NCBI GenBank assembly: GCA_944391625.1
Contig: CALXUG010000004.1
Span: 62,001-126,000, forward strand
Direction: 5' to 3'
Source: an uncultured Clostridia bacterium
Lineage (GTDB): Bacteria; Bacillota; Peptococcia; Peptococcales; Peptococcaceae
Length of the DNA stretch: 64,000 nt
A model generated the notes under the pieces. That model worked only from the letters and a program-made list of their open reading frames with translations, did no database searches and was not told the DNA's origin. Each line of letters opens with the position of its first letter. The first letter of the stretch is position 1. Made by a program: the position numbers and the translations under genes. Shown one piece after another: positions 39,357 to 48,692 of the stretch.

Positions 39357-39414
39357 TTAATCGAGGGTAAAAATGATATTGTGGTAAGAGGATGCTTATC
39401 AAGAAAGTATTGAA

Positions 39415-39540
39415 AACTTTGAAAATGAAGTGAATTTAGGATAAAGATGGTATTTCTTTTTATAAAAATTGACAGATTTTATTACTAATGATAATATAAT
39501 TTTATGCATAGAAAATTACATTTGCAATCAACACATGATA
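39415..39540 (+). repeat. Duplicated promoter region, copy 1
   Basis: Contains TTGACA (39469-39474), 17-base spacer and TAATAT (39492-39497). The whole stretch from GAAAATGAAGTGAATTTAGG through ATTTCTTTT, AAAAATTGACAG, TGATAATATAA and GCATTT-like downstream sequence is shared with 40195-40310, which drives the next gene. Confidence 0.75.
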
Positions 39541-39590
39541 GGAATGTAGAGACTATTTTAAACAATAGCTATAAATAAGGGGGTATTGAA

Positions 39591-40121
39591 ATGAACAAGG
39601 TAATAACAAAATTAATAATAGCTTTTTTGATTATAGTGACCTTTCTACTATTATTTGGCAAAACATTGTTTATGCATATAATGGGATTTCTGTTTTTTGG
39701 CTCTCCTTTTGACGAATTTACTATAAATCACATAGGAAACCCTTTAGTTGTTGGTGAGAGTTGGAGTGAAGAAGATGTAGATTATGAAGATTATTTTCAA
39801 GTAACTGTAGCAGATATTACTTCTTCAGAAGAAAATGGGCAATATTTATATGACATTACGATAATTGCCGAGAACTACCAGAATCTGCGTGGGAATGAAG
39901 ATCTGGAGGTGTATTGTGAGATTGATATTCCTAAACGTAAAATGATAACCGAGGAAACGCCGAATTACTTTACAGTACCGAAAGAACAAATCAAAGAATA
40001 TCATTACAAGTTTTTCTTACGGGAGGAAATTACTAATTTTAATTGTGAAATTGAAATTCCTTTACACGTGGATGAAAGACACAAATATAAAAAAATATGG
40101 AGCTATAGTTCGACTTTGTAA
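39591..40121 (+). CDS. Membrane-anchored hypothetical protein
   Basis: A 176-residue protein with one N-terminal membrane segment (residues ~8-38) and a soluble, probably extracytoplasmic domain with immunoglobulin-like beta strands (YFQVTVADITSSEENGQ, YDITIIAENYQN, FNCEIEIPLHVDE). No family is recognised. ATG 39591 follows AAGGGGG. Its promoter region is a near copy of that of the downstream HbpS-like gene, suggesting shared control or local duplication. Confidence 0.65.
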   Translation: MNKVITKLIIAFLIIVTFLLLFGKTLFMHIMGFLFFGSPFDEFTINHIGNPLVVGESWSEEDVDYEDYFQVTVADITSSEENGQYLYDITIIAENYQNLRGNEDLEVYCEIDIPKRKMITEETPNYFTVPKEQIKEYHYKFFLREEITNFNCEIEIPLHVDERHKYKKIWSYSSTL

Positions 40122-40194
40122 TTAGAGTTGAGCAAGACTTTATGCTCAATGATAGAGTTATTGTATAAGGGGATATATATCAAAAAAGGCTAAA

Positions 40195-40310
40195 AAATCT
40201 GAAAATGAAGTGAATTTAGGAGGAAGATTGTATTTCTTTTCACAAAAATTGACAGGAAGTATTATTAGTGATAATATAAATTTATACATAGCAGATTGCA
40301 TTTGTAATCT
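40195..40310 (+). repeat. Duplicated promoter region, copy 2
   Basis: TTGACA (40249-40254), 17-base spacer and TAATAT (40272-40277) embedded in the same ~110-base context as copy 1 (TCTGAAAATGAAGTGAATTT, TATTTCTTTT, AAAAATTGACAG). Confidence 0.75.
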
Positions 40311-40338
40311 GTATTATAAAACGAGGGGGTTTTATTTT

Positions 40339-41298
40339 ATGAAGAAAAACAAATTGATTTCTATGTTGTTGGTAGGTGCATTATCGGTATCTATGGTGTT
40401 AGGTTTTGGCGGCGCAGCTTTTGCCGACACTGCAGATAAGGTGCCTGCAAAAGCGCCGGTGGCGAATGGTGAATTATTAGATGCCGCAAAGATTATGGTA
40501 GCCGGTGCGCAAAATAAAGCAGAAGAAATTAAAGTGCCGATGGTTATTTCTGTTGTAGACATGGATGGCAATTTAGTATTACTGCATCGCATGGAAGATT
40601 CTCTGTTAGCAAGTTTGGAAATTGCCCAGAATAAAGCATACACATCCGTTGCTTTAAAAATGCCAAGCGCTGATGTGAAAAAACTGGCTCAAGAAGGGCA
40701 GGAACTGCAGGGGATTGCAGTGCAGCATGCCGGACGTATTGTAGAATTTGGCGGCGGACTGCCAATCTATGATAAAAATGGTAAACAGATTGGTGCCATC
40801 GGGGTATCCGGCGGCAGTGTAGCAGAAGATACTTCTGTAGCGCAGGCTGGTTTGGATGCCTATAAAGCTGGTAAAAAAATAAAAGCTGCTTCTGGTGGCG
40901 AACTGTTGGATCAGGCTATGACAATGGTAGAAGCTGCTGAGAAAAAAGCAGTCAATATTAAAGTGCCGATGGTTATTTCTGTTGTAGATATGGGCGGTAA
41001 TTTAGTATTACTGCATCGTATGGAAGATTCTCTGTTAGCAAGTTTGGAAATCGCTCCAAATAAAGCATACACATCTGTTGCCTTAAAAATGCCGAGCGCT
41101 GATGTGAAAAAACTGGCCCAGGAAGGGCAGGAACTGCAGGGGATTGCAGTACAGCATGCCGGACGTATTGTAGAATTTGGCGGCGGGCTGCCAATCTACG
41201 ATAAAAATGGTAAACAGATTGGTGCCATTGGGGTATCCGGCGGCAGTGTAGCAGAAGATACTTCTGTAGCGCAGGCTGGTCTGAATGCAGTGAAGTAA
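40339..41298 (+). CDS. Exported tandem HbpS/GlcG (DUF336) protein
   Basis: A 319-residue exported protein. Residues 1-29 form a classic signal peptide ending in AFA. Two HbpS/GlcG/PduO-C (DUF336) domains follow (~50-180 and ~190-319), each with VPMVISVVDM, GNLVLLHRMEDSLLASLEIA, YTSVALKMPSADVKKL and the glycine-rich IVEFGGGLPIYDKNGKQIGA-type core. The two copies are almost identical. Related proteins bind haem or sense it extracellularly. ATG 40339 follows GAGGGGG; longer frames upstream include the promoter. It is likely abundant and surface or medium located. Confidence 0.85.
   Translation: MKKNKLISMLLVGALSVSMVLGFGGAAFADTADKVPAKAPVANGELLDAAKIMVAGAQNKAEEIKVPMVISVVDMDGNLVLLHRMEDSLLASLEIAQNKAYTSVALKMPSADVKKLAQEGQELQGIAVQHAGRIVEFGGGLPIYDKNGKQIGAIGVSGGSVAEDTSVAQAGLDAYKAGKKIKAASGGELLDQAMTMVEAAEKKAVNIKVPMVISVVDMGGNLVLLHRMEDSLLASLEIAPNKAYTSVALKMPSADVKKLAQEGQELQGIAVQHAGRIVEFGGGLPIYDKNGKQIGAIGVSGGSVAEDTSVAQAGLNAVK
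40527..40855 (+). repeat. Internal DUF336 repeat, first copy
   Basis: This coding repeat is nearly identical at DNA level to 40956-41284, offset by 429 bases (143 codons). Most differences are synonymous, so the duplication is recent or is maintained by gene conversion. Confidence 0.85.
40956..41284 (+). repeat. Internal DUF336 repeat, second copy
   Basis: Partner of 40527-40855. Replacements include D to G in VVDM(D/G)GN and Q to P in EIA(Q/P)NKA. Confidence 0.85.
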
Positions 41299-41334: not shown

Positions 41335-41368
41335 AGGGTGATGAAACGTTGGTTTTGTCACCCTTTTT
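41335..41368 (+). terminator. Terminator of the HbpS-like gene
   Basis: AGGGTGA pairs with TCACCCT around a 16-base loop and is followed by five T, 37 bases past the stop codon. Confidence 0.8.
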
Positions 41369-42025
41369 GCTGTGAAGTTGATTATTTGAAATTGATTATA
41401 AAAATGAATTGTTATGTCATGAAAATAGAATATCATAATAAAATAATGTATAGGCAAATATTTCTTGTTTGTGCTGCAAACCATAACGAATTTGATAGAG
41501 TAAAGTAGTATATGGATTAAAAAAGTGTAAAAGAACAGACACATATCATGATGTACGGGAGGTTAATTTTTTGATAAAAGAAAGTTTTCCTGAAATACTG
41601 CGTAATTAAAATGCAAACTTGTACCTGAATTCACAAATAAAAGTGTCACATATTATAAAGCATCAATAAGTCAGAAGAAAAGCCGGATACAGATTGTTAT
41701 GATAGCTTTATAAAGAAAAAAGAGTTAAGTAAGTGTAAAATATTATAGTATAGTGTAATATATTTTTGGTAAAAAAGAAAAAATAATTTCACTATTTCTG
41801 GATATAGTTAGAAATTATAGTCATATAAATTTGATTAATATGAAAAATTAAAATTGTTTAACCGCCGAAAGTGGCGTAATGAAGCCTGTACAATAAATTT
41901 TGTGCTGGCGTTCACGAGGAACTATAGACTTTTAATTTTGGATACTATATAATGAAATTAACTTAATATGATACGAGATAGATTGTATTATTAAAAAGTA
42001 AATAAATAAAGGGAGAGTGGTACCG
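41369..42025. other. Long A+T-rich leader region before hdrC
   Basis: About 650 bases with no convincing gene; short open frames lack ribosome sites. Most is A+T-rich. The exception is a compact G+C-richer block at 41860-41925, listed separately. A TATAAT at 41948-41953 with a poor TAGACT -35 at 41925-41930 could be a promoter for the hdr-flx operon. Confidence 0.55.
41860..41925 (+). promoter_or_regulatory. Candidate structured RNA or operator upstream of hdr-flx
   Basis: Three back-to-back hairpins: CGCC/GGCG closing a GAAAGT loop (41863-41876), GCC-GTACAA/TTGTGC-GGC (41884-41909) and GTTC/GAAC (41910-41922). They are joined by short segments such as GTAATGAA. The arrangement resembles a small riboswitch more than random A+T-rich spacer, but no known class fits well and no terminator follows. 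Whether it is transcribed is unknown. Confidence 0.35.
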
Positions 42026-42598
42026 TTGACGCTGAATGAAAAACAGAAGCAAAATGAAGAACTGAATCGTGAGTTCCTCAGACGCAGTGGCGTAAATGTT
42101 TCAAAATGTTATCAGTGTGGGAAATGTTCTGCTGGTTGTCCTGTGGGCGATCATATGGACATTCCAACCAATAAGGTAATGCGTCTGGCACAGATGGGTC
42201 TGATTGAAGATGCTATGAAGAGTCATGCAATTTGGTTATGTGCTTCCTGCACAACCTGCACAACTCGATGTCCAAAAGGGGTAGACGTTGCGAAAGTAAT
42301 GGAAACCTTACGGATTATGGCCAAAGAACATGGTTATGTGGCAGAGAAGAATGTAGATAAATTCCATAGTGTATGGATGGGGATTATTGGAACTATGGGC
42401 AGAATGTATGAACCAGGTTTAATTGTTGGGCGTAATTTCTCTACCGGGAAATTGTTCCAGGACACATCCTTTGGTATTCCATATATTGCAAAACAAAAAT
42501 TAAAATTGGTTCCATATAAATCTGGAAATATGAATGAAATTAAATCTCTGATTGCCAAAGCAGAAGCGATGGACCGAGAAGAAAGGGGCAATAAATAA
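42026..42598 (+). CDS. hdrC: HdrC-like iron-sulfur subunit
   Basis: A 190-residue ferredoxin-type subunit of a heterodisulfide-reductase-like complex. Two [4Fe-4S] motifs are visible: CYQCGKCSAGCP (Cys28, 31, 34, 38) and CASCTTCTTRCP (~73-84). It passes electrons from HdrA to the HdrB site. Unlike membrane-bound HdrE systems, the gene set here is soluble. TTG 42026 is ten bases past GGGAG; a GTG at 42017 abuts the site. First gene of hdrCBA-flxDCBA; it overlaps hdrB by one base. Confidence 0.9.
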   Translation: MTLNEKQKQNEELNREFLRRSGVNVSKCYQCGKCSAGCPVGDHMDIPTNKVMRLAQMGLIEDAMKSHAIWLCASCTTCTTRCPKGVDVAKVMETLRIMAKEHGYVAEKNVDKFHSVWMGIIGTMGRMYEPGLIVGRNFSTGKLFQDTSFGIPYIAKQKLKLVPYKSGNMNEIKSLIAKAEAMDREERGNK

Positions 42599-43479
42599 TG
42601 GATTATGCATATTATCCTGGATGTTCCCTGGAGTCTACAGGGATTGAATTCCATATGTCCACCAAAGCTGTAGCAAAAGCTTTAGGTATTAATCTTGTGG
42701 AAATACCTGACTGGAACTGCTGTGGTGCAAGTAGTGCCCATGCCAGAGGTCATTGGCTGTCTTTGGCGTTGCCAGCCCGTAATATGGCAATTGCCGAAGC
42801 TGCTGGTTTAGATGTTGCCATTCCTTGCGCAGCTTGTTATTCCAGAAGTAAACAGGTTGAAGTGGAAGTAAATAAATCTGAAGAAACAAAGGCAAAAATT
42901 GAAGAAATCATTGGCCGTCCTTACACTGGCAAAAGCAAAGCAAGAAATCTGACTGATATTTTTTATCGCGATTTAGGTCCTGCTGCTATTGCTGAAAAAG
43001 CGAAAAAGAGTCTGAAAGGTTTGAAAGTTCTGACCTATTACGGTTGCTTGATGTCTCGTCCGCCGGAACTGGCTTGTGATGATATAGAAGATCCAATCAG
43101 CTTGGATGAAATTATGACAGCATTGGGTGCAGAAGTGATTCCTTGGGGATTCAAAACCGAATGCTGCGGTGGCAGTTTGACTGCTTGCCGTCCGCAGGTT
43201 GGAATGGATATGACAAAAAGAATTATGGACGCTGCTAAAAAATCCGGTGCTGACTGTATTGTAACTGCTTGTCCAATGTGTCACTCCAACTTGGATATGC
43301 GTCAGGTGCAACTGAGCAAAGCATATGGTGCATATAATGTGCCTGTTTACTTTGTAACAGAATTGATTGGTATTGCATTGGGTATGAGTCCAAAAGATTT
43401 GGGTATTAACAGACACTTTATTCCAGCGGAAGCTACATTGACAAAAATCGGAAAAACCAGTGAAGGCGGTGAAGCATAG
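42598..43479 (+). CDS. hdrB: HdrB-like CCG-domain subunit
   Basis: A 293-residue catalytic subunit with two CCG domains. The first has Cys9, Cys41-Cys42 and CAAC (76-79), matching C-x31-39-CC-x35-36-C-x-x-C for the noncubane [4Fe-4S] cluster. The second has YYGCLMSRP, ECCGGSL and CPMC. In methanogens this pair of clusters reduces CoM-S-S-CoB; in bacteria the disulfide partner is probably different, for example a DsrC-like thiol protein, which is not present here. Both start and stop codons overlap the neighbours. Confidence 0.93.
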   Translation: MDYAYYPGCSLESTGIEFHMSTKAVAKALGINLVEIPDWNCCGASSAHARGHWLSLALPARNMAIAEAAGLDVAIPCAACYSRSKQVEVEVNKSEETKAKIEEIIGRPYTGKSKARNLTDIFYRDLGPAAIAEKAKKSLKGLKVLTYYGCLMSRPPELACDDIEDPISLDEIMTALGAEVIPWGFKTECCGGSLTACRPQVGMDMTKRIMDAAKKSGADCIVTACPMCHSNLDMRQVQLSKAYGAYNVPVYFVTELIGIALGMSPKDLGINRHFIPAEATLTKIGKTSEGGEA

Positions 43480-45485
43480 TGGAAAGAGTAGGGGTATTTA
43501 TCTGTCACTGCGGTTCCAACATCGGTGCAGTTGTTGATTGTGCCAAAGTAGCAGAAAACGTAAGAAATTATCCTGGTGTTGCTTACAGCACCGACTACAA
43601 ATATATGTGTTCTGAACCTGGTCAGGAAATGATTCAGAATGCTATCAAAGAACATAATCTGAACCGTGTGGTTGTAGCTTCTTGTTCTCCTCGTATGCAT
43701 GAAAAAACATTCCGGGCTTGCGTAGAAAAAGTGGGTCTGAACCCATATATGTTTGAAATGGCAAATATTCGTGAACATTGTTCCTGGGTACATGCTGGTA
43801 AAAATGAAGAAGCAACGGAAAAAGCAACTGACTTGGTAAAAATGGCTGTTTCCAAAGTATGCAAAAATGAGGAATTGCAGAAAGGACATGCGCCTGTAAC
43901 AAAACGTGCTTTGGTTGTAGGCGGCGGTATTGCTGGTATTCAGTGTGCTCTGGATATTGCTAATAACGGTTATCAGGTAGACATTTTGGAACGGACTCCA
44001 TCTATCGGTGGTAAAATGTCTCAGATTGATAAAACTTTCCCGACCATTGACTGTTCTGCTTGTATTTTGACTCCTAAAATGGTAGAAGCCAGCAGTCATC
44101 CAAATATCAATCTGATTACCTATTCTGAACTGGAACATGTAGATGGTTATGTGGGCAACTTTGAAGTTACCATCCGCAAAAAAGCCCGTTCTGTTGATAT
44201 TAAAAAATGTACTGGCTGCGGTACTTGTATGACCAAATGTCCAGGGAAAGCAGATGACGAATTCAATATGAATCTGCGGAAACGGACTGCAATTTATACA
44301 CCGTTCCCACAGGCTATTCCAAATAAACCGGTTATTGACCGTGTGAACTGTTTGAAATTTAAAAGCCGTGAAAATGGTAAAGATGTTTGCGGGATTTGTT
44401 CTAAATTCTGTCCAACTGGCGCAATTGATTACGAACAGGTTGATGAACTGGTAACAGAAAAATATGGTGCTATCGTTATGGCAACTGGTTATGAACAGTT
44501 TGACCACAGCATTTATGGGGAATATGGCTATGGTAAATATCCAGATGTAATTTCCGGTTTACACTTTGAACGTCTGGTAAATGCTTCTGGTCCTACCCAG
44601 GGTCACATTGTTCGTCCTTCTGACCACAAAGAACCAAAAACAGTTGTTATGGTAAAATGTGTTGGTTCCCGTGATCCAGAACATGGTAAGAGCTATTGCT
44701 CCAGAACTTGCTGTATGTATACTGCAAAACAGGCTACCATGATTCGTGACCATTGCCCGGATACAAAAGTGTATGTATTCTATATGGATGTTCGTACTCC
44801 AGGGAAATTGTATGATGAATTCTACAATCGTACCAGAGAAGAATATGGTGTAGAATATGTTCGCGGCCGTGTATCCAAAATTTATCAGGATGGCGAACAG
44901 CTGATGGTGAAAGGCGAAGACACTCTGTTGGGTAAACAGGTAGAAATCGCTGCCGATATGGTAATTTTGGCAAATGCAATGATTCCACAGACTGACTCTG
45001 AAAAAATGGCGCAGATTGTTGGGATTGGTTATGATAAAGATGGATGGTTTACAGAATCTCATCCAAAATTGGGTCCGGTAGAAACCCACACTGCTGGTGT
45101 ATTCTTAGCTGGTGCTTGTCAGGGTCCGAAAGATATTCCAGACTCAGTAGCACAGGCCGGTGCAGCTGCTGTTAAAGTATGCGCCCTGTTGTCAAAAGAT
45201 CAGTTGGAAACAGAGCCAACCGTATCTAAAGTTGATACAAAAATCTGTTCTGGTTGTGGATTGTGCGTTCCGGTTTGTCCATACAAAGCGATTACACTGG
45301 AAACCATTCAGGAGCGGAGAGCTGGAAAAACAATTGAGCGTTTGGTTGCCAATGTTAACAGCAGTTTGTGTCAGGGTTGCGGTGCTTGTACTGTTACCTG
45401 CCGTTCCGGTGCAGCGAACCTGAAACACTTTACAAACGCACAGATCTTAGCGGAGGTGGATGCATTATGTCAAACAATTCTGTAG
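43479..45485 (+). CDS. hdrA: HdrA-like FAD iron-sulfur bifurcating subunit
   Basis: A 668-residue HdrA, the flavin-based bifurcation centre. The N-terminal domain has VFICHCGSNIGAVVDC and SCSPRMHEKTF. The FAD Rossmann motif is VVGGGIAGIQCALDIANNGY, next to DCSACILTPKMVEA. Ferredoxin-type clusters are at KCTGCGTCMTKCPGK, CGICSKFCP, and a C-terminal pair CSGCGLCVPVCP and CQGCGACTVTC. It receives electron pairs from the Flx subunits and splits them to low-potential ferredoxin and to HdrBC. GTG 43479 overlaps the hdrB stop codon. No selenocysteine codon is present. Confidence 0.95.
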   Translation: MERVGVFICHCGSNIGAVVDCAKVAENVRNYPGVAYSTDYKYMCSEPGQEMIQNAIKEHNLNRVVVASCSPRMHEKTFRACVEKVGLNPYMFEMANIREHCSWVHAGKNEEATEKATDLVKMAVSKVCKNEELQKGHAPVTKRALVVGGGIAGIQCALDIANNGYQVDILERTPSIGGKMSQIDKTFPTIDCSACILTPKMVEASSHPNINLITYSELEHVDGYVGNFEVTIRKKARSVDIKKCTGCGTCMTKCPGKADDEFNMNLRKRTAIYTPFPQAIPNKPVIDRVNCLKFKSRENGKDVCGICSKFCPTGAIDYEQVDELVTEKYGAIVMATGYEQFDHSIYGEYGYGKYPDVISGLHFERLVNASGPTQGHIVRPSDHKEPKTVVMVKCVGSRDPEHGKSYCSRTCCMYTAKQATMIRDHCPDTKVYVFYMDVRTPGKLYDEFYNRTREEYGVEYVRGRVSKIYQDGEQLMVKGEDTLLGKQVEIAADMVILANAMIPQTDSEKMAQIVGIGYDKDGWFTESHPKLGPVETHTAGVFLAGACQGPKDIPDSVAQAGAAAVKVCALLSKDQLETEPTVSKVDTKICSGCGLCVPVCPYKAITLETIQERRAGKTIERLVANVNSSLCQGCGACTVTCRSGAANLKHFTNAQILAEVDALCQTIL

Positions 45486-45934
45486 AAAATTTTGAACCAA
45501 AAATTCTGGTTTTCGCATGCAACTGGTGTACTTATGCCGGTGCGGACTTAGCTGGCACAAGCCGTTTGCAGTATCCGCCAAATGTTCGTGTGCTGCGTGT
45601 ACCATGTTCCTGCCGTGTGAATCCACAGTTTGTAATTCGTGCGTTCCAGAGAGGGATTGACGGTGTATTGGTAGCAGGCTGTCACCCAGGTGACTGCCAT
45701 TATACGACAGGAAACTATTATACAAGACGTCGTTTCTTATTAATTACTCGTATGATGGAATATATGGGCATTGATCCAAAGCGGTTCCATACCAGATGGA
45801 TTTCTGGTGCAGAAGGTCCAAAATTCCAGCAGGTAGTAACAGAAATGATTGAAGAAGTAAAAGCAATTGGTCCAAATGATAAATTGCGTGATGATATGAA
45901 AGTTGAAGTAAAGGCGGTGGAAACAAATGAGTGA
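45467..45934 (+). CDS. flxD: MvhD/FlxD-like [2Fe-2S] electron-transfer subunit
   Basis: A 155-residue MvhD-family protein linking the NADH-oxidising module to HdrA. It begins KILVFACNWCTYAGADLAGTSR, then VRVLRVPCSCRVNPQFV and GVLVAGCHPGDCHYTTGN, the usual ligand cysteines. Position 3 of the second motif is Cys where family members usually have Gly (CSGRV or CTGRV). ATG 45467 overlaps the end of hdrA by 19 bases and has GGAGGTG upstream; longer frames upstream lie inside hdrA. Confidence 0.92.
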   Translation: MSNNSVENFEPKILVFACNWCTYAGADLAGTSRLQYPPNVRVLRVPCSCRVNPQFVIRAFQRGIDGVLVAGCHPGDCHYTTGNYYTRRRFLLITRMMEYMGIDPKRFHTRWISGAEGPKFQQVVTEMIEEVKAIGPNDKLRDDMKVEVKAVETNE

Positions 45935-46811
45935 TATCCAGAGTGAAATGCGAGCAACTGCGAAACAGTTGTTAGAATCCGGAGAAGCTACTGTTGTAAT
46001 CGGATGGGAAAAAGGTACTATGCCATATAATTCTACTCCGGTTATGATTCGTTCTGCTGCTGATGTTGATAAATTAATTTGGGATGAGTATTGTCAGCAA
46101 AATTTGAGCACTTACTTGATTGATTTTATCTACACAGAAGATAAAGTTGCAATCTTTGCCAAAGGCTGCGACACCAGAGCGTATAACCGTTTGATTCAGG
46201 ATAAACGTATCAGTGCGGATAAATGTATCGTTATTGGTGTTCCATGCTCTGGTATGAAGAGTGCCAAAGCGGCGGCTAAACTGCCTGAAGGTGCTGAAGT
46301 ACCAATGTCCAAAGCTTGTAAAGAATGCCGTTATCCGAACCCGGTTGTGTTTGATCGTAAAATTGGTCAGGATGTAACACCTTGGTGTACTGAAAAAGAT
46401 TTCTCTGATGTAGAAGCTATTGAAGCGATGGATCAGGATGCCAAAGCTGCATTCTGGAAAGAACAGTATACCAAATGCATTCGTTGCTATGCTTGCCGTA
46501 ACATCTGTCCAGCTTGTAACTGCACCAACTGTATCTTTGATCAGAGTGCTTCCGGTTGGCAGAGTAAAGATATTAATGCCTCTGAAAATCAGTTCTATGG
46601 TGTAACCAGAGCGTTCCACGTAGCAGGTCGCTGTATTGAATGCGGACAGTGCGAAATGGTATGTCCATCTGATGTTCCAATTATGTTAATGAATAAAAAA
46701 TTCATTAAAGATATTGATACATTGTTTGGTGCTTATGAAGCTGGTTTAGAAACAGAAGGGCCTGTTCCACTGAGTCACTACGAAGTGTCTGACCCTGAAG
46801 AATTTATGTAA
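45927..46811 (+). CDS. flxC: FlxC-like iron-sulfur subunit
   Basis: A 294-residue iron-sulfur protein. The N-terminal half resembles coenzyme F420 hydrogenase/FdhB-like proteins (VAIFAKGCDTRAYNRLIQ, VIGVPCSGM, CKECRYPNPVV). The C-terminal half has two clusters, CIRCYACRNICPACNC and CIECGQCEMVCP. Position and composition match FlxC of Flx-Hdr operons described in sulfate reducers. It overlaps flxD by eight bases. Confidence 0.82.
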   Translation: MSDIQSEMRATAKQLLESGEATVVIGWEKGTMPYNSTPVMIRSAADVDKLIWDEYCQQNLSTYLIDFIYTEDKVAIFAKGCDTRAYNRLIQDKRISADKCIVIGVPCSGMKSAKAAAKLPEGAEVPMSKACKECRYPNPVVFDRKIGQDVTPWCTEKDFSDVEAIEAMDQDAKAAFWKEQYTKCIRCYACRNICPACNCTNCIFDQSASGWQSKDINASENQFYGVTRAFHVAGRCIECGQCEMVCPSDVPIMLMNKKFIKDIDTLFGAYEAGLETEGPVPLSHYEVSDPEEFM

Positions 46812-46826
46812 AGGAGGCAGGTTATT

Positions 46827-47828
46827 GTGAAAACTATTGAAAAAGCAAAATTAGACAGTCTTTTCGCACAGCTGGCGCAGAATTATAGTCTGTTGGTGCC
46901 AGTGGATTACAATGGCTTGACACAGTTTGCTCCATATAGTCAGGTACAGGAAGGCGTTTCTCAGTTGTATTTAGACGGAAACGTAACAGTATCTCCAAAA
47001 ACAGCTTATCTGCCTCAGTCTGAAGCAATGTATAAATTCCGTGCGCAGGGCAAAAAACTGGCTATTGAAGAAATGGCTGGTTTGGATAAACAGCAGGTAT
47101 TGTTTGGTGTTCGTCACTGTGATACTAAGGCGATCCAATGTTTAGACAAAGTATTTTTGGATGAAAAATTTGAAGATCCGCAATATAAAAATAAAAGAGA
47201 ACAAAATATTGTATTCTCTTTGGCTTGCAACAATCCAAAAGCGACTTGTTTTTGTGAGTCCATGGGGCTGGATCGTGCCCATGCAGAAGCTTCTGTGGCT
47301 GACGTACAAGTATATGATTTTGGTGATAGTTTCGGTTTTGAAGCCATTTCCGATAAAGGGAAAGCATGTCTGGATAAATTGACTGGCTTGGGTGAAACTG
47401 CCAGCAAACTGCCAGACCAGAAACCGCAAACTCTTAAGTTTGATGTTGCTGGTCTGCCGGAAAAATTAAAAGATATGTTTGAAGATCCTATCTGGGATGA
47501 ATATAGTTTTAAATGCTTGAATTGCGGTACTTGCAGTTATATCTGTCCAACTTGCCATTGCTTTGATATTAATAATAAAATCCGTGGTGAAGTGGGTGTA
47601 AAACTGCGTACTTGGGATAGCTGCATGTTCAATGAATACACTTTGATGGCTGGCGGTCATCAGCCACGTGCGGGCAAAAAAGAACGTGTGCGGAACCGTT
47701 TCTTGCATAAATTGCAGTATTTCAATGAAAAACATGATATGTCTCTGTGCGTTGGATGTGGTCGTTGTGTTGCCAAATGTCCAGTGAACGTAGATATTAC
47801 AAAATTTATCAGACAGGTAATTGGCTAA
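46827..47828 (+). CDS. flxB: FlxB-like iron-sulfur subunit
   Basis: A 333-residue 4Fe-4S dicluster protein related to sulfhydrogenase beta subunit (HydB) and FlxB. The N-terminal part has LLVPVDYNGLTQFAPY and GVRHCDTKAIQCLDKVF. The clusters lie at CLNCGTCSYICPTCHC and CVGCGRCVAKCP. It should carry electrons from FlxA to FlxD/HdrA. GTG 46827 is preceded by AAAGGAGG. It starts 15 bases after flxC. Confidence 0.85.
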   Translation: MKTIEKAKLDSLFAQLAQNYSLLVPVDYNGLTQFAPYSQVQEGVSQLYLDGNVTVSPKTAYLPQSEAMYKFRAQGKKLAIEEMAGLDKQQVLFGVRHCDTKAIQCLDKVFLDEKFEDPQYKNKREQNIVFSLACNNPKATCFCESMGLDRAHAEASVADVQVYDFGDSFGFEAISDKGKACLDKLTGLGETASKLPDQKPQTLKFDVAGLPEKLKDMFEDPIWDEYSFKCLNCGTCSYICPTCHCFDINNKIRGEVGVKLRTWDSCMFNEYTLMAGGHQPRAGKKERVRNRFLHKLQYFNEKHDMSLCVGCGRCVAKCPVNVDITKFIRQVIG

Positions 47829-47843
47829 AGAGGAGGGTTTTTT

Positions 47844-48692
47844 GTGAAAACAGCTTCGGCAAGTGATGTAAAACGCATCAACAATTTGGTTCCAAAAATC
47901 GGTGTTGTTAAGGAAATTCTGGATGAAACACCAGATGTAAAAACCTTCCGTATCAGTACGCCGGAAGGAGAAAGACCGTTTACTCCAATGCCAGGTCAGC
48001 TGGGAATGTATTCTCTGCCAGCAGTTGGGGAAGCAATGTTCTCCGTTACAAATTATGGCGATGACTATATTGATATGTCCATTAAAAAATATAATGATGG
48101 TGTATTGACCAGTGTTCTGCATGCTATGGAAGAAGGACAGGAAGTTGGTATTCGTGGGCCTTACGGCAATGGGTTCCCTATTGATCAGTTCAAAGGGAAA
48201 GACATTGTGTTCGTTGCTGGCGGTATCGGTTTGGCTCCAGTTAGAAGCCTGATTTTATATTGCATGAGAAATAGAGAAGACTTTGGTAAACTAACCATTA
48301 TTTATGGCGGACGCAGTAAAGATGACTTATGTTTTAAAGAAGATTTGTTTGAAAACTGGCCAAAAGTTCCAAATACAGAAGTACATGTTACCATCGACCG
48401 TCCACAGGAAGGTTGGGATGGTCACGTGGGGTTTGTGCCTGACTTTGTAAAAGAAATTGCGCCAAATGCACAGATTGCTGCTGTATGTGGACCTCCGATT
48501 CTGATAAAATTAACATTGCCAATTTTATCTCAAATGGGTCTGCCAGATGAAGATATCATCACTACGCTGGAATTGCGTATGAAATGTGGTATTGGTAAAT
48601 GTGGACGTTGTAACATTGGTTCCTGTTATGTATGTTTAGATGGTCCTGTATTCTCTCAGGCACAGCTGAATAACATGCCAAAAGAATATTAA
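47844..48692 (+). CDS. flxA: FlxA-like NAD(P)H:FAD oxidoreductase subunit
   Basis: A 282-residue ferredoxin-NADP reductase-type flavoprotein related to sulfhydrogenase gamma and dihydroorotate dehydrogenase PyrK. FAD binding is in FTPMPGQLGMYSLP and FSVTNYGD, and the pyridine-nucleotide fold is FVAGGIGLAPVRSLI. The C-terminal [2Fe-2S] motif is CGIGKCGRCNIGSCYVC. It is the entry point for NADH into the Flx-Hdr complex. GTG 47844 follows AGAGGAGGG. Last gene before a strong terminator. Confidence 0.9.
   Translation: MKTASASDVKRINNLVPKIGVVKEILDETPDVKTFRISTPEGERPFTPMPGQLGMYSLPAVGEAMFSVTNYGDDYIDMSIKKYNDGVLTSVLHAMEEGQEVGIRGPYGNGFPIDQFKGKDIVFVAGGIGLAPVRSLILYCMRNREDFGKLTIIYGGRSKDDLCFKEDLFENWPKVPNTEVHVTIDRPQEGWDGHVGFVPDFVKEIAPNAQIAAVCGPPILIKLTLPILSQMGLPDEDIITTLELRMKCGIGKCGRCNIGSCYVCLDGPVFSQAQLNNMPKEY

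Follow-up and report, generated by a model that had tools for sequence, protein, structure and literature searches.

A rare exported protein with two DUF336 domains in gut and rumen Firmicutes: partial gene conversion over an old tandem, and a possible association with alcohol and aldehyde oxidation

Proteins of the DUF336 family (PF03928, named HbpS-like) occur beside aldehyde-making pathways, and few of them have a known ligand. Three structurally characterised members can be compared with the locus described here. HbpS of Streptomyces reticuli (3FPV), part of a haem sensor system with a haem-binding Thr-113, is described as exported by the Tat pathway and partnered by SenS-SenR (PMC3754957). 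The C-terminal domain of PduO (PduOC, PDB 5CX7), which is fused to an adenosyltransferase, is described as a haem binder whose ligands are the His18 residues of two subunits and whose pocket also contains Trp50 (PMC4923194). EfgA (PDB 6BWS, 6C0Z), whose features are formaldehyde binding and growth arrest, is presented as a cytoplasmic protein found almost only in methylotrophs, with formaldehyde contacts at K57, S114 and D121, and at R42 by simulation (PMC8153426). As regards metabolic context, the oxidation of ethanol by Desulfovibrio vulgaris is reported to require FlxABCD-HdrABC (PMC10084766 and PMC4759654, citing Ramos 2015), and Aor (DVU_1559), Adh1 and Flx of the same organism are grouped under ethanol metabolism (PMC10920352).

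The locus lies in a 64,000-nucleotide stretch of DNA from an uncultured Clostridia bacterium (the whole of which we refer to as the window), and consists of the following features:

39413..39529, + strand: promoter repeat copy A, ahead of gene A (repeat comparison, genome search, resampling)
39591..40121, + strand: gene A, 176 aa, no family, with an N-terminal hydrophobic segment (by eye), between the two promoter repeats
40193..40309, + strand: promoter repeat copy B, ahead of the two-domain gene (repeat comparison, genome search, resampling)
40339..41298, + strand: gene for a putatively exported protein of 319 aa with tandem DUF336 domains; by eye, residues 1-29 look like a signal peptide
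40474..40863, + strand: domain 1, residues 46-175
40534..40851, + strand: homogenised tract, domain 1 side, codons 21-126 (dS 0.246 versus domain 2; diagnostic columns)
40903..41292, + strand: domain 2, residues 189-318
40963..41280, + strand: homogenised tract, domain 2 side, codons 21-126 (dS; diagnostic columns)
41335..41364, + strand: terminator-like hairpin after the two-domain gene (2 found versus a shuffle mean of 1.2, weak alone)
42017..48692, + strand: operon of HdrC, HdrB, HdrA, FlpD, Fe-S protein, AsrA-like and AsrB-like genes, of Flx-Hdr type by composition

An earlier note on this DNA, written from the letters alone, had described the second gene as containing two DUF336 domains at 429-base spacing, and the family scan confirmed this: PF03928 (and no other family) matched the protein in two stretches (237.3 bits versus a curated cut-off of 25), while in the DNA the repeat (40467-40766 and 40896-41195, 87% identity) has a spacing of 429 nt. 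The genome is without any other PF03928 gene. The mechanically called reading frame begins at 40210, within copy B of the promoter repeat; the ATG at 40339 is the plausible start, and from there the protein would carry a Sec-type signal peptide (by eye) and be exported. The same note's claim of export is supported by this predicted signal and by two relatives (L060 and L061) whose lipobox-like starts make them look like lipoproteins. In this respect the protein resembles HbpS and differs from the cytoplasmic EfgA, although HbpS leaves by the Tat pathway and has SenS-SenR as a partner, whereas in the window protein the signal reads as Sec-type (by eye) and the scanned neighbours include no kinase.

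A search of genome contigs with the single protein as query gave nothing, and an alignment query gave relatives, i.e. at least ten loci at 76-88% identity to domain 1 among the matches listed, followed by a gap to about 62%. The ten listed loci encode eight exported two-domain and two exported single-domain proteins (one copy of the gene in each genome), and together with one two-domain protein from a survey of genomes of one taxonomic family they form the 11 relatives discussed below. The gene is rare and patchy: it was found in 2/397 genomes in one family survey, in none of seven same-genus genomes and in none of five other same-family genomes. As the two-domain architecture recurs in nine of the 11 listed relatives from other genomes (the other two being single-domain), the mis-assembly that the earlier note had considered is ruled out, and the duplication of the domains, which it took to be recent, is old; judged from these sequences, the tandem is ancestral to the rare family. 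Another duplication state is seen in Acetobacterium (L107, L116, L117, L124 and L126), where directly after a PduO gene comes a second DUF336 gene, with a single domain.

The likeness between the two window domains has a younger origin. Between them, dS is 0.246 in codons 21-126 and 1.88 in codons 1-20, while the same 106 codons differ between the domains of eight relatives by a dS of 0.98-1.55 (dN being well under dS between domains in all eight). The differences had been called mostly synonymous, which holds for codons 21-126 (14 synonymous and 2 non-synonymous codons) and fails for codons 1-20 (4 and 9, respectively). Since many forks of the domain tree are weak (10 of its 19 inner branches are open), conversion was judged from dS and from diagnostic columns, namely the 8 of 130 columns in which the domain 1s and domain 2s of eight non-window proteins have no residue in common. 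Each window domain retains its own type at columns 6, 10, 14, 17 and 31; at two others, 96 and 124, domain 2 shows the domain-1 type, and its residue at column 130 belongs to neither set. The confinement of low dS to codons 21-126, together with the domain-1 residues in domain 2, means that a recent partial gene conversion (homogenisation) between the domains took place in the window lineage, so that conversion, the other process raised in the earlier note, is upheld.

A first structure model was poor (pLDDT 57) and was set aside; a second AlphaFold2 model, built from 62 rows, reached a mean pLDDT of 87.8 and a pTM of 0.82. Its best solved matches were tied between EfgA (Z 17.7, rmsd 1.4, 41% identity), PduOC with haem (Z 17.4, rmsd 1.4 over 132 residues, 37% identity; the same fold) and OrfY (Z 17.2), followed by 4nkp (Z 16.1) and by NahX and HbpS (about 15.5-15.8, HbpS at 15.5). 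Matches of IclR type (Z about 4-6) were discarded as fold-level likeness only. Functional residues were mapped through HMMER alignments, extended by two residues without gaps, onto 20 domain copies from 11 proteins. At the position of PduOC His18 (Lys51 and Met194 in window domains 1 and 2, respectively), none of the 20 copies has a His; the residue is K or Q in domain 1 and in the single-domain proteins, and M or I in domain 2. The position of PduOC Trp50 is taken by a His (His83/His226) that is invariant in all 20.

These substitutions bear directly on whether the protein is an extracellular sensor or store of haem or iron after the manner of HbpS, with haem held between the domains through another residue (e.g. 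His83/His226). Such a function would agree with the family name, with export and with the invariant His within what is the haem pocket of PduOC, and domain 2 has mostly Met, a residue that can ligate haem, at the His18 place. Nevertheless, the only ligand shown structurally, His18, is replaced throughout, a His at the His83 position is present in the alignment of EfgA too, and the HMMER match to HbpS (2e-8) is weaker than those to OrfY, EfgA and PduOC. Moreover, no haem-uptake, sensor-kinase or response-regulator family was detected among the 16 window ORFs scanned (37994-59255), a set that includes the two-domain gene. We therefore regard a haem or iron function as distinctly unlikely, and the haem scavenging or redox sensing suggested in the earlier note found no backing in the axial position or in the genomic links, which are to aldehyde and alcohol oxidation. 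A more improbable derivation still is that of a corrinoid (or other tetrapyrrole) accessory protein from the C-terminal domain of PduO. Within the organism's own class, the homologues closest to the protein are indeed PduO fusions in pdu-like operons, and both haem and cobalamin are given as ligands of HbpS and PduO in PMC8153426; yet the window protein has neither the adenosyltransferase nor the N-terminal domain of PduO. Other differences from PduOC are that it is exported and tandem, with His18 replaced. Furthermore, no pdu genes stand beside the ten loci (by eye), and Rfam scans gave nothing, cobalamin riboswitch included, so that a riboswitch was dropped as a candidate.

By comparison, the pocket residues of EfgA are kept. 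R42, K57, S114 and D121 correspond to R84, K99, S157 and D164 in domain 1 and to R227, K242, S300 and D307 in domain 2, and all are invariant in the 20 copies. Because the Lys, Ser and Asp are kept family-wide (K99, S157 and D164 are invariant in 62/62 DUF336 rows of the wider alignment), the pocket neither singles out aldehydes nor identifies the ligand. What sets the exported clade apart from 51 other DUF336 sequences is a signature of Q124, E136, S110 and K114: position 124, occupied in EfgA by the Tyr of its LYG motif, is Gln in 11/11 members of the clade and Tyr, Phe or Trp in 51/51 sequences outside it, and position 136 is Glu in 11/11 and in 0% outside.

The earlier note had also pointed to about 110 bases of promoter DNA repeated before two adjacent genes, and this repeat proved to be genuine: the copies span 117 nt at a spacing of 780 nt and agree at 98 positions (84%), as against a maximum of 65 matches in 200 Markov-resampled pairs (subsampled offsets). 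Both contain a sigma-70-like TTGACA-17-TAATAT with identical spacing (39469-39497 and 40249-40277), the second hexamer being preceded by TG. A genome search with the block returned two strong copies only (E 1.5e-71 and 5.1e-30, the next being 0.058), and the upstream regions of ten relatives gave short stretches only (best 16 nt, E 0.015). As there is no third strong copy and no real match upstream of the relatives, the block is a local duplication and not a promoter of the family, and the idea of a regulon was dropped.

Between the two copies lies gene A, a low-GC orphan (31.5% versus 41.3% for the window) that encodes a membrane-type protein flanked by direct repeats. It matched no family in Pfam and NCBIfam (even at E 5 only chance-level matches appeared). 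A homologue (59%) was present in one of the seven same-genus genomes (G003, locus L158), where the context differs and so, by eye, does the DNA immediately upstream; this homologue adjoins N runs. A weak second match to gene A occurs in the organism's own genome (G000:C19, E 1.7e-4). On the simplest reading, gene A came to lie between two copies of a promoter that had been duplicated, and would now share its neighbour's regulation. In all seven same-genus genomes (loci L138-L144) coaE is followed by a cysK-like gene (by eye; one is TIGR01139 by HMM), whereas in the window gene A and the two-domain gene come after it, with no cysK-like gene there, and the locus of the two-domain gene thus looks acquired. 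A mobile element on plasmids or phages was considered and dropped, the matches being domain-level only and below 60% identity.

On the other side of the gene, an operon that resembles FlxABCD-HdrABC by composition (HdrABC, FlpD, Fe-S, AsrA-like and AsrB-like proteins, the AsrA and AsrB models being below cut-off) starts 0.7 kb downstream; its frames for HdrA (43479-45485) and FlpD (45368-45934) overlap. The components expected of FlxABCD-HdrABC are HdrA, HdrB and HdrC together with FlpD, two Fe-S proteins and an NAD-binding subunit. Given the terminator-like hairpin, the two-domain gene is probably transcribed separately from this operon.

The genomic company of the relatives points in the same metabolic direction. 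In four of the 11 (G429, G430, G432 and G435) genes of a molybdopterin aldehyde oxidoreductase (AOR) cluster are found no more than about 3 kb from the two-domain (or single-domain) gene, and in three of these (G430, G432 and G435) it is placed on the same strand among the genes of a DVU_1551-1559-type cluster (NF045668, NF045663, NF045669, NF045646 and NF045666), for which the literature searched shows no exported DUF336 member. Specifically, the gene stands between AOR and the dicluster oxidoreductase in G435 and has AOR 0.8 kb downstream in G430; in G432 it is preceded by a ModC-like gene (207 bits, cut-off 285) and followed after 63 bases by the dicluster oxidoreductase, AOR itself being on another contig; and in G429 it has AOR on one side and an XdhC-like maturation factor (312.5 bits, cut-off 350) on the other, each about 3 kb away. 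Two further relatives have alcohol-related neighbours, namely AdhE (NF010378, 1376.7 bits) one gene upstream in G434 and an iron-type alcohol dehydrogenase (ADH) directly after the gene in G437 (specific models below cut-off). The remaining five (G428, G431, G433, G436 and G663) showed no aldehyde gene by eye in flanks that were in some cases very short and with ORFs partly scanned. In G431 an ORF that by eye resembles carbon monoxide dehydrogenase (L184, 16452-18338) was seen about 6 kb from the two-domain gene.

At the level of whole genomes, AOR (NF045668) is present at no less than 71% identity in 10 of 12 listed carrier genomes, the window's included (one partial at 74%), and absent from G434 and G663; in the window genome a full molybdopterin AOR cluster lies on another contig (L225, G000:C3:52000-71999). 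The background is lower: in the family of one carrier, AOR occurs in 14/397 genomes at an identity of at least 64% (23/397 at the E-value limit), and in 4/46 genomes of the window's own class. AOR without the two-domain gene is found in three of these four (G001, G005 and G014) and in most of the 14 background genomes; G001 and G005 also carry a full AOR cluster. Fisher tests gave p 6e-7 for the six carriers in the surveyed family and p 3e-11 for all 11 other listed carriers, the latter from a table that mixes families; both values are indications only and are too small, since the carriers are related and were treated as independent. The neighbourhood and co-occurrence evidence, moreover, partly repeat each other.

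It might be argued, then, that the promoter block and the tandem have no functional tie to aldehydes, and that the association with AOR reflects shared habitat and gene transfer only. The rarity and patchiness of the gene and the acquired look of its locus speak for this; the retention of the tandem in most listed relatives, the low dN relative to dS between domains and the placement of the gene inside the AOR cluster speak against it, and we judge a purely ecological association unlikely, if far from negligible. AOR, furthermore, is expected in the cytoplasm and the two-domain protein outside it, which would count against any aldehyde reading. The evidence for an aldehyde-linked extracytoplasmic role is consistent but circumstantial. 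With these reservations, our tentative interpretation, to which we give somewhat less than an even chance, is that the protein represents a rare extracytoplasmic DUF336 subfamily which, in Firmicutes of the gut and rumen, functions in connection with the oxidation of alcohols and aldehydes, the nature of its ligand being inferred. If this is so, each domain would accommodate a small aldehyde, or a compound related to one, within the R84/K99/S157/D164 pocket (R227/K242/S300/D307 in domain 2), at the place where EfgA holds formaldehyde. Outside the membrane, the exported protein would sense or buffer aldehyde, its tandem would provide a built-in dimer with two slightly different sites, and the shared promoter would let gene A and the two-domain gene be expressed under the same conditions. 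The more specific proposal, that the exported subfamily is a two-site aldehyde receptor or buffer attached to an anaerobic ethanol/aldehyde module (AOR, ADH and Flx-Hdr), is possible and on the doubtful side; neither a link of DUF336 to this module nor an exported DUF336 gene in an AOR cluster is described in the literature searched.

Taken together, the domain pair offers a clear natural case of partial gene conversion over an old duplication, and the 'haem-binding' annotation of the DUF336 family should not be read literally. Moreover, the tie between an exported tandem branch and the AOR cluster puts forward a concrete and testable ligand class and, if true, would suggest that anaerobes in the gut monitor the aldehyde outside their membrane or buffer it.
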